From: Lachnospiraceae bacterium
GTDB taxonomy: Bacteria; Bacillota; Clostridia; Lachnospirales; Lachnospiraceae
Assembly: GCA_024691305.1 (NCBI GenBank)
Contig: JAILNS010000033.1
Span: 107,089 to 171,088 of the forward strand
Reading direction: 5' to 3'
Length of the DNA: 64,000 nt
Part shown: positions 62,395 to 64,000 of the stretch, piece after piece
Numbering within the stretch: the first letter of the stretch is position 1
Layout: each line of letters opens with the position of its first letter
The notes under the pieces: model-generated
Told to the model about the DNA's origin: nothing
Seen by the model: the letters and a program-made list of their open reading frames with translations, nothing else
The model's database searches: none
Made by a program: the position numbers and the translations under genes

Positions 62395-63465
62395 ATGAAC
62401 ATGACTCCTGAAGCAATAGCTGAATACAAAGGCGTGTATGTTTTCGCACAGCAGGTAGACCATACTGTAGGAAGCATTGCCTATGAACTTCTGGGTAAGG
62501 CAAGAGATCTGGCCGCACCCTTAAATACCGAAGTAGTTGCCGTACTTATCGGATCCGGCGTAAAGGATCTTGCAGATTCACTCGCTGAGTATGGCGCAGA
62601 TAAGGTCATCGTTGTTGATGATCCCGAATTAAAAGAATACAGAACAGAGCCTTATGCTCACGCACTCTCAAGCGTTATTGAGAAGTATAAGCCCGAGATC
62701 ATGCTGGTCGGTGCAACGGCTATCGGTCGTGACCTTGGACCTACCGTATCCGCAAGAGTAGCTACAGGTCTTACAGCAGACTGTACAGTACTTGAGATTG
62801 GTGATTTCCCGCTTGTACCCATACCGGGCAAAGAAGACGAGCAGCTTCACAATCAGCTCCTTATGACCCGTCCTGCTTTTGGCGGTAACACGATCGCTAC
62901 TATCGCATGCCCTTACAACCGTCCTCAGATGGCAACGGTTCGCCCCGGTGTTATGCAGAAGATCGAGCCCAAGAAGGGTGCTAAGGCAGTTGTTGAAGAA
63001 TTCAATCCCGGATTTACTCCCAATAACCGTTATGTGACGATCAAGGAAGTAGTTAAGGCAGTAAATGATACAGTTGATATCATGGATGCCAAGATCCTTG
63101 TATCCGGCGGACGTGGAGTAGGAAGTCCTGAGAACTTTAAGCTTCTTGAGGATCTTGCAGAAGCAATCGGCGGAACAGTATCCTGCTCACGTGCAGTAGT
63201 AGATGCAGGTTGGAAGCCGAAGGATCTTCAGGTAGGACAGACCGGTAAGACAGTTCGTCCCAATGTTTATTTTGCAATAGGTATTTCGGGTGCGATCCAG
63301 CACGTAGCAGGTATGGAAGAATCCGATATCATCATTGCGATCAACAAGGATGAAGACGCTCCTATCTTTGATGTTGCAGATTACGGTGTAGTAGGAGATC
63401 TTAATAAGATACTCCCTCAGCTCACCGAACAGGTTAAAGCAGCCAGAGCAGCTAAGAAGAACTGA
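62395..63465 (+). CDS. etfA: Electron transfer flavoprotein subunit alpha
   Basis: 356 residues, a little longer than the 320-residue norm. C-terminal FAD-binding domain: VSGGRGVGSPENFKLLEDLA, SRAVVDAGWKPKDLQVGQTG and YFAIGISGAIQHVAGM. Last gene of the operon. The transcript runs into a long inverted repeat 28 bases after the stop. Confidence 0.97.
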   Translation: MNMTPEAIAEYKGVYVFAQQVDHTVGSIAYELLGKARDLAAPLNTEVVAVLIGSGVKDLADSLAEYGADKVIVVDDPELKEYRTEPYAHALSSVIEKYKPEIMLVGATAIGRDLGPTVSARVATGLTADCTVLEIGDFPLVPIPGKEDEQLHNQLLMTRPAFGGNTIATIACPYNRPQMATVRPGVMQKIEPKKGAKAVVEEFNPGFTPNNRYVTIKEVVKAVNDTVDIMDAKILVSGGRGVGSPENFKLLEDLAEAIGGTVSCSRAVVDAGWKPKDLQVGQTGKTVRPNVYFAIGISGAIQHVAGMEESDIIIAINKDEDAPIFDVADYGVVGDLNKILPQLTEQVKAARAAKKN

Positions 63466-63546
63466 TGAATTAAAGATAATAAGGGACGGCCCTTGATCTG
63501 AGGTCTGTCAAGTAGACAGGCAAAACAAATAAAATAACATCAAACG

Positions 63547-63579
63547 AAAAGGTGGTCACATAAACTGTGATCACCTTTT
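63547..63579 (+). terminator. Intrinsic terminator of the butyrate operon, in left arm of the inverted repeat
   Basis: AAAAGGTGGTCACA (63547-63560) pairs with TGTGATCACCTTTT (63566-63579) around TAAAC with one mismatch. A mirror copy on the minus strand sits at 63774-63806 and would end the convergent gene. Confidence 0.85.
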
Positions 63580-63773
63580 GTTATGCTGATGGTTATAGCC
63601 ATCATGTTTATCCTTGGTCTGCTTGACTACAGAATAACTGTCGGGAAATATCAGTCAACCCCAACGCCGCTTCGCGGTGCGCTTGGCGCAGGGTTGACAG
63701 TTATTTCCCGGCAGTTATAGTAGTCAACAAGCAGACCAAGGATAAATATGATGGCTATAACCATCAGCATAAC

Positions 63774-63806
63774 AAAAGGTGATCACAGTTTATGTGACCA
63801 CCTTTT
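63774..63806 (-). terminator. Mirror-image terminator in right arm of the inverted repeat
   Basis: This is the exact reverse complement of the terminator at 63547-63579 and lies 100 bases beyond the stop of the minus-strand gene at 63910. Confidence 0.8.
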
Positions 63807-63909
63807 CGTTTGATGTTATTTTATTTGTTTTGCCTGTCTACTTGACAGACCTCAGATCAATTGCGACAGCCCTGTTTGTTTGATCAATTAGATACTGTTT
63901 AAAGAAGTA

Positions 63910-64000
63910 TCAGTCTTTCTTGTCGATATAATCGTCGAAGTTGGTCATCATATCGTGTGATGCCTGATCGAGTGCCTGAGCAGAATCTGCAGCAGCCTGA
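63910..64000 (-). CDS. C-terminal end of an unidentified protein
   Basis: Minus-strand reading frame ending at TCA 63910-63912. The last 29 residues read QAAADSAQALDQASHDMM followed by TNFDDYIDKKD. Helical, Ala/Asp/Gln-rich. Too short to identify; the gene continues past the right edge of the window. Confidence 0.6.
   Translation of the reverse strand, partial: QAAADSAQALDQASHDMMTNFDDYIDKKD

Follow-up and report, generated by a model that had tools for sequence, protein, structure and literature searches.

The window, a stretch of 64,000 nucleotides, closes with two convergent genes: etfA (electron transfer flavoprotein alpha; positions 62395..63465, plus strand) and the 3' end of a DUF975 membrane-protein gene (63910..64000, minus strand), the rest of which is on another contig, C19. 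The two are separated by a giant inverted repeat with outer arms at 63493–63625 and 63728–63860 (133 nt each, 99% complementary) and inner arms at 63634–63661 and 63691–63718 (89% complementary). The repeat contains a 366-bp element (63494..63859, with no strand assigned), which runs from TGATCTGAGG to CCTCAGATCA and is bounded on both sides by the terminal repeat TGATCTGAGGTCTGTCAAGTAGACAG (first copy at 63494..63519, plus strand; second copy at 63834..63859, minus strand). We annotate this element as a composite of an IS3-family right end, a hairpin and an inverted right end. The first mismatch between its two halves falls at element position 113 (window 63606) and the next are from position 133 inward; together with the complementary flanking pair 63493/63860, this makes the outer 113 bases of the arms identical. 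The predicted RNA fold of 63480–63870 has an energy of -303.6 kcal/mol, compared to a mean of -96.7 for shuffled sequences (z -31.9), and none of 100 shuffles folded as well. The inverted repeat is thus real as sequence, chance being excluded, and the original prediction of a repeat with 113 identical outer bases is borne out.

The 366-bp element is present as a single copy in its own genome. The repeat had no match in plasmid and phage collections searched at distant sensitivity, and a scan of viral contigs with a pattern for the right end returned no stretches. The best score in Rfam, searched with the window copy only, was 25.7 bits where 65 was required, and all matches were sub-threshold. 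The suggestion that the repeat is a REP-like element was abandoned, as REP or BIME identity needs many short palindromic copies per genome and this genome has one.

Judged from its relatives in other genomes, the repeat has as its arms two right ends of an IS3-family insertion sequence, and the middle of the repeat is that element's own T-shaped hairpin. The first right-end copy (element 1–115; 63494..63608, plus strand) faces etfA and is an inverted match to element 252–366, which constitutes the second copy (63745..63859, minus strand) facing the terminal 141 bases of the window, here termed X, with the DUF975 gene. The T-shaped hairpin occupies a subterminal position between them (model R1; 63608..63746, plus strand). 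Together with this hairpin, the second copy is collinear (94%) with a right end of Butyrivibrio VCB2006: element 116–366 is 94% identical to three contig-end sequences of that genome (L133, L140, L154) and 87% identical to three of Lachnospiraceae AC3007 (L142, L145, L150). Five of these six contigs continue beyond the hairpin into the C-terminus of a transposase (WAA* to KYKAKWAA*), and in the elements of both genomes the T-shaped hairpin lies between the transposase stop codon and the right end. The outer part of the first copy is 76–97% identical to right ends of other Lachnospiraceae, and sequence related to the repeat was present in several genera among 397 family genomes searched. Scanning the collection with the right-end pattern returned 23 stretches; every one lies in a record named Butyrivibrio or Lachnospiraceae, and several come from the rumen of sheep or goats or the omasum of water deer. 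A contig end is reached inside the element in 19 of the 23, of which five extend into the transposase and are therefore certain single right ends. Gene conversion, which had been invoked to keep the outer parts identical, is not needed, since these are two copies of one insertion sequence end.

Complete elements were found in two relatives. That of G250 has 1959 bases between its ends and encodes proteins of 225 (OrfA) and 321 (OrfB) residues; orfB belongs to the IS3 family (NF033516, E 1.1e-74; PF00665, the DDE or rve domain), and orfA, with an HTH_Tnp_1 domain, overlaps it by 4 bases. The G214 element has 1804 bases between its ends, and the transposase proteins of G214 and G222 are 68–69% identical to the G250 OrfB. 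The 5'-TG...CA-3' termini and 3-bp target duplication of IS3-family elements were both found among the ends in relatives. The T-shaped hairpin is absent from the G214 element, whose transposase ends about 100 bases short of the right end, and the G250 element carries it merely in a shortened form, as judged by eye. A search for an IS3-type OrfB in the window's own genome gave no matches at 1e-40, so the interior of the element is missing from this assembly. One contig of the genome, C34 (G000:C34:1-301, L170), begins within a 79-residue OrfA fragment of the insertion sequence. Four right ends in the collection (L132, L138, L141, L143) break off shortly beyond the outer hairpin region, where other sequence takes over; they could be solitary, decayed or rearranged ends, possibly retained as terminators.

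The central hairpin has a structure common to 12 copies, with 50 base pairs, 25 of them changed on both sides, and 93.1% of cells able to pair. Its covariation score was 0.365, compared to 0.118 for shuffled and at most 0.077 for slid alignments. A covariance model built on it, with stricter filters and the best eight or fewer candidates scored per genome, identified the hairpin in at least 34 of the 397 family genomes at E <= 1e-4, the window's own genome included. It is accordingly a conserved structure, the window copy of which has no Rfam match above the gathering score.

Each right end in the window also contains a predicted terminator-like hairpin, at 63546..63580 on the plus strand (-19.4 kcal/mol) and at 63773..63807 on the minus strand. 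This hairpin, AAAAGGTGGTCAC, was not among the predictions of a standard terminator scan and was detected by a looser rule, which is weak on its own, as 447 of 600 random 125-base pieces contain some such hairpin. Its strength and position are more distinctive. A hairpin of -13.4 kcal/mol or better starting at base 48–53 was present in both window copies and in all 11 testable right ends from other genomes (G214, G222, G019, G142, G038, VCB2006, AC3007, RGIG3470, G250, RUI304, and RGIG8894; that of SIG339 was too short), and the position is kept even where the sequence is unrelated (G214, G222, G019, G142, and G038). Among 600 random 125-base pieces from the same loci, 24 had a hairpin of that energy and none had one at base 48–53. 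Left ends had weaker hairpins only, in six of eight from relatives (-6.6 to -9.4) and in that of C34 (-9.4). The inner hairpin of the right end is predicted to restore termination after the element has inserted.

The sequences outside the right ends indicate what such an insertion would interrupt. Next to the terminal TG, the flanks carry an A-tract and then a GC-rich half-stem, and so resemble one half of an intrinsic terminator. A rule based on these two features was passed by 24 of 33 distinct right-end flanks, as opposed to 12.2% of 20,000 AT-matched random positions; the nine that failed include the etfA flank. To recover the other halves, left ends were sought in 14 genomes and found in 10, and right-end flanks were joined to left-end flanks and refolded, for the first six relatives and the window's own genome and then for G450 and XPD2002. 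An initial rule (at least 8 pairs spanning the join and an energy below -12) was too loose: it was passed by 30 of 58 pairs formed within a genome and by 63 of 284 formed across genomes. A strict rule, chosen after the output was known, called for a 3-bp duplication together with a fold of -16 kcal/mol or better that has at least 8 pairs spanning the join. By this rule a left-end partner in the same genome was found for 12 of 20 right ends, whereas 2 of 284 cross-genome pairs passed. The passes came from VCB2006 (4/5), AC3007 (3/3), SIG339 (2/3), RUI304 (1/3), G450 (1/1, with TTG and -25.8), and the window's own genome, in which the etfA flank pairs with that of C34 (1/1). No partner was found by the strict rule for the remaining eight right ends, which include that facing X and the single ends of RGIG7009 (0/1), RGIG3470 (0/1), and XPD2002 (0/1; -2.7). 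The five right and five left ends of VCB2006 sort one to one, the fifth pair (L149–L240) folding at -29.6 without a 3-bp duplication. Among other insertions, that of G214 passes with a CCC duplication, that of G250 has a TTT duplication yet refolds poorly (z -1.4), and that of G038 refolds only moderately (z -2.7) with no duplication seen. The reconstructed sites show the insertions in relatives to lie, with 3-bp duplications, in the loops of putative A-tract/GC-stem/T-tract hairpins. Insertion in a palindrome loop, of the type associated with IS1397, was thus found in the refolded end pairs; the stems themselves vary in sequence within and between genomes and are terminator-like, and do not make up one REP sequence family.

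At the window locus, the flanks of the composite element are not the two sides of one such site. On the left, AAGGGACGGCCCT (63481..63493, plus strand) is the left half of the terminator that follows etfA; on the right, ATTGCGACAGCCCT (63860..63873, plus strand) is the right half of a terminator between pgm and the DUF975 gene. The bases adjoining the element are unequal (CCT on the left, ATT on the right), and when joined the flanks fold at only -13.6 (z -1.0), which is not one terminator. Each half does have a likely counterpart elsewhere in the genome. The last three bases of the left half, CCT, are a target duplication in common with contig C34, which has the left end of the insertion sequence and then CCTGAGGGGACCGTCCCTTTTT; the etfA and C34 flanks refold at -25.7 (z -5.2) with the CCT duplicated. 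The right half is intact on contig C29, where pgm is joined to X in a complete terminator (-32.4).

The gene order in relatives is in keeping with two separate sites. In three of six same-genus relatives (G002, G003, and G006), etfA is followed by feoAB and a convergent DUF975 gene faces pgm; in two others (G001 and G005) the DUF975 site differs, and G004 is without a close DUF975 relative. The pgm–X–DUF975 junction is also intact in the window's own genome, across contigs C29 and C19. The C34 genes were sought beside etfA in the relatives and not found, and as the neighbor of etfA in three of them is feoAB, the link between etfA and C34 is one of matching half-stem and CCT only.

These observations bear directly on the original prediction that etfA and the convergent gene have an identical 87-base 3' UTR and terminator, through which their mRNAs could be jointly controlled. 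The arms are indeed identical and a terminator-like hairpin is predicted in each. However, the gene pair does not look native when compared to either the three relatives or the intact pgm–X–DUF975 junction, the identical sequence is the end of a transposable element present in many other flanks, and the flanks are halves of two different terminators. We therefore do not retain the shared UTR and consider joint regulation of a native convergent pair highly improbable; etfA and the DUF975 gene are probably not true neighbors. A regulatory reading that was attractive but is probably false thereby falls away, and the contig end is marked as doubtful.

The structure of the contig end suggests how the two sites came to be joined. 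Position 64000 is the physical end of the window's contig, C28. X (63860..64000, with no strand assigned), which starts at the first base past the element edge, recurs in reverse orientation at two other contig ends, as the opening 141 bases of C29 and the closing 141 of C19. That two predecessors, the etfA-linked element and pgm, lead into one successor, X, we read as the mark of a branch in an assembly graph with k=141. In a related metagenome-assembled genome, contigs end exactly 141 bases deep in the element (L139, L147), and one related assembly has k141 within its contig names. With up to 3 mismatches allowed, only one left end, that of C34, was found in the genome, and the junction between pgm and a left end that a second insertion should have produced was not found.

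The explanation that we favor, with fair but by no means firm confidence, is that the repeat consists of two opposed IS3-family right ends around their own hairpin, a composite of two insertions that was most probably joined by the short-read assembler and is not native. That it is a composite is likely, given that the half-stems on its two sides belong to two different predicted terminators. The assembler is favored over the cell as the maker of the join because the genome retains both the native pgm–X junction and, on C34, the other half of the etfA site, and because only one left end was found in it. Under this explanation, a two-ORF transposase such as that seen in relatives would pick a hairpin as its target, regardless of stem sequence, and the hairpin lying some 50 bases in from the right end would replace the terminator split by the insertion. 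One copy of the element would lie between etfA (right end) and C34 (left end), and a second would lie in the pgm/DUF975 terminator in part of the population; the contig would then have been led from the right end of the first copy through the hairpin into that of the second.

The assembler would have required more than a simple fold of its graph. At the turn-back, the arms have an identical run of only 19 bases; assemblers usually go no lower than k=21, so that a step using smaller words, such as the local assembly of MEGAHIT, would be needed. The original prediction had offered a mobile element or an assembly fold-back as alternatives: the mobile element is supported in the form of insertion sequence right ends, as is the suspicion of an assembly join, but a plain snap-back artefact was judged unlikely because it should leave the same flank at both sides, and the two flanks differ.

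Contig C28 crosses the repeat unbroken, which speaks against a join by the assembler and for a real rearrangement. Element copies at etfA and in the pgm/DUF975 terminator might have recombined via their right ends or hairpin arms, which would in some cells truly place etfA, a pair of right ends, and the DUF975 gene side by side. The junction of the element with X is consistent with this, as it coincides exactly with the TG end of the element and lies in the terminator loop between pgm and the DUF975 gene, like a true insertion, and the single-base difference between the right ends at position 113 is compatible with two independent copies. However, homologous recombination between two whole copies should give a right–left rather than a right–right arrangement, and the genome search gave no reciprocal junction of pgm with a left end. 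We consider such a rearrangement less likely than a join by the assembler.

A fold-back miniature element is a further alternative. In this case, slippage of replication at the hairpin would have produced an inverted copy of the right end, and the resulting transposase-less element would have inserted at X and later swapped its left flank with that of the etfA insertion. The two complete terminal repeats, the lack of a transposase, and a turn-back that coincides with the hairpin base all fit such an origin. Against it, a single insertion should have equal 3-bp flanks and one terminator, and CCT and ATT with two different half-stems were found; the element is also single-copy in the genome, and no second double right end, such as a disseminated MITE should show, was seen in the 397 family genomes or among the 23 stretches. 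This last absence counts for little because most contigs (19 of the 23 stretches) break inside the element. On balance a fold-back origin appears improbable.

Beyond the composite join, we put forward tentatively, as a proposal standing a little short of even chances, that a lineage of IS3-family elements uses intrinsic terminators as landing sites, recognized by hairpin shape rather than sequence, and, having split the host terminator in its loop, swaps in its own terminator ~50 bases inside the right end, making insertion nearly harmless; that some members carry the strongly covarying T-shaped hairpin; and that giant right-end/right-end palindromes are real by-products of that hairpin. Such an element would exploit an intergenic place where insertion should do little harm, and it seems, from the predicted folds, to mend the damage with a terminator of its own. 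The wider point suggested by these sequences is an IS3-family lineage that appears to land in terminator loops and to carry a terminator-like hairpin 48–53 bases inside its right end. The terminator-targeting idea is directly testable in cultured Butyrivibrio.

Several known systems resemble this one in part. IS1397 and ISKpn1 are IS3-family elements that are described as inserting in the palindromic REP units of enterobacteria (PMC1525189) and thus also choose palindromes as targets; in contrast, the targets here are terminator-like, with A/T tracts and differing stems, and occur in Lachnospiraceae, and the element brings a terminator-like hairpin of its own, accompanied in some members by the T-shaped one. 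IS1272 of staphylococci, as outlined in the account of its inverted-repeat-replacing transposition (PMC5678879), likewise targets stem-loops of any sequence, but it deletes the target stem-loop with no target duplication, whereas the element described here leaves both halves of the stem in place and duplicates 3 bp. Bacterial class C group II introns are reported to insert downstream of Rho-independent terminators (PMC3522654), landing sites that are read there as limiting harm and expression; those, however, are retroelements that land after the stem-loop, and the element described here has a DDE transposase and lands inside the loop, splitting the terminator. None of the titles and abstract openings listed in literature searches showed a terminator-targeting IS3-family element, although one may be in print.

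The T-shaped hairpin also occurs outside this insertion sequence. Inverted pairs of it are present at L210 2784-3484 (G250:C18) and L212 2785-3517 (G333:C13), where the two hairpins are about 430–460 bp apart and flank short repeats, the units in G250 carrying TTACCTGCA...TGCAGGTAA palindromes; these pairs may mark the limits of a repeat element of another kind. Single T-shaped hairpins adjoin arrays of short intergenic repeats at L121 (G006:C78:5500-9500) and L122 (G177:C8:55500-59500), the array in G006 being made up of ACGGGTTA-type units.
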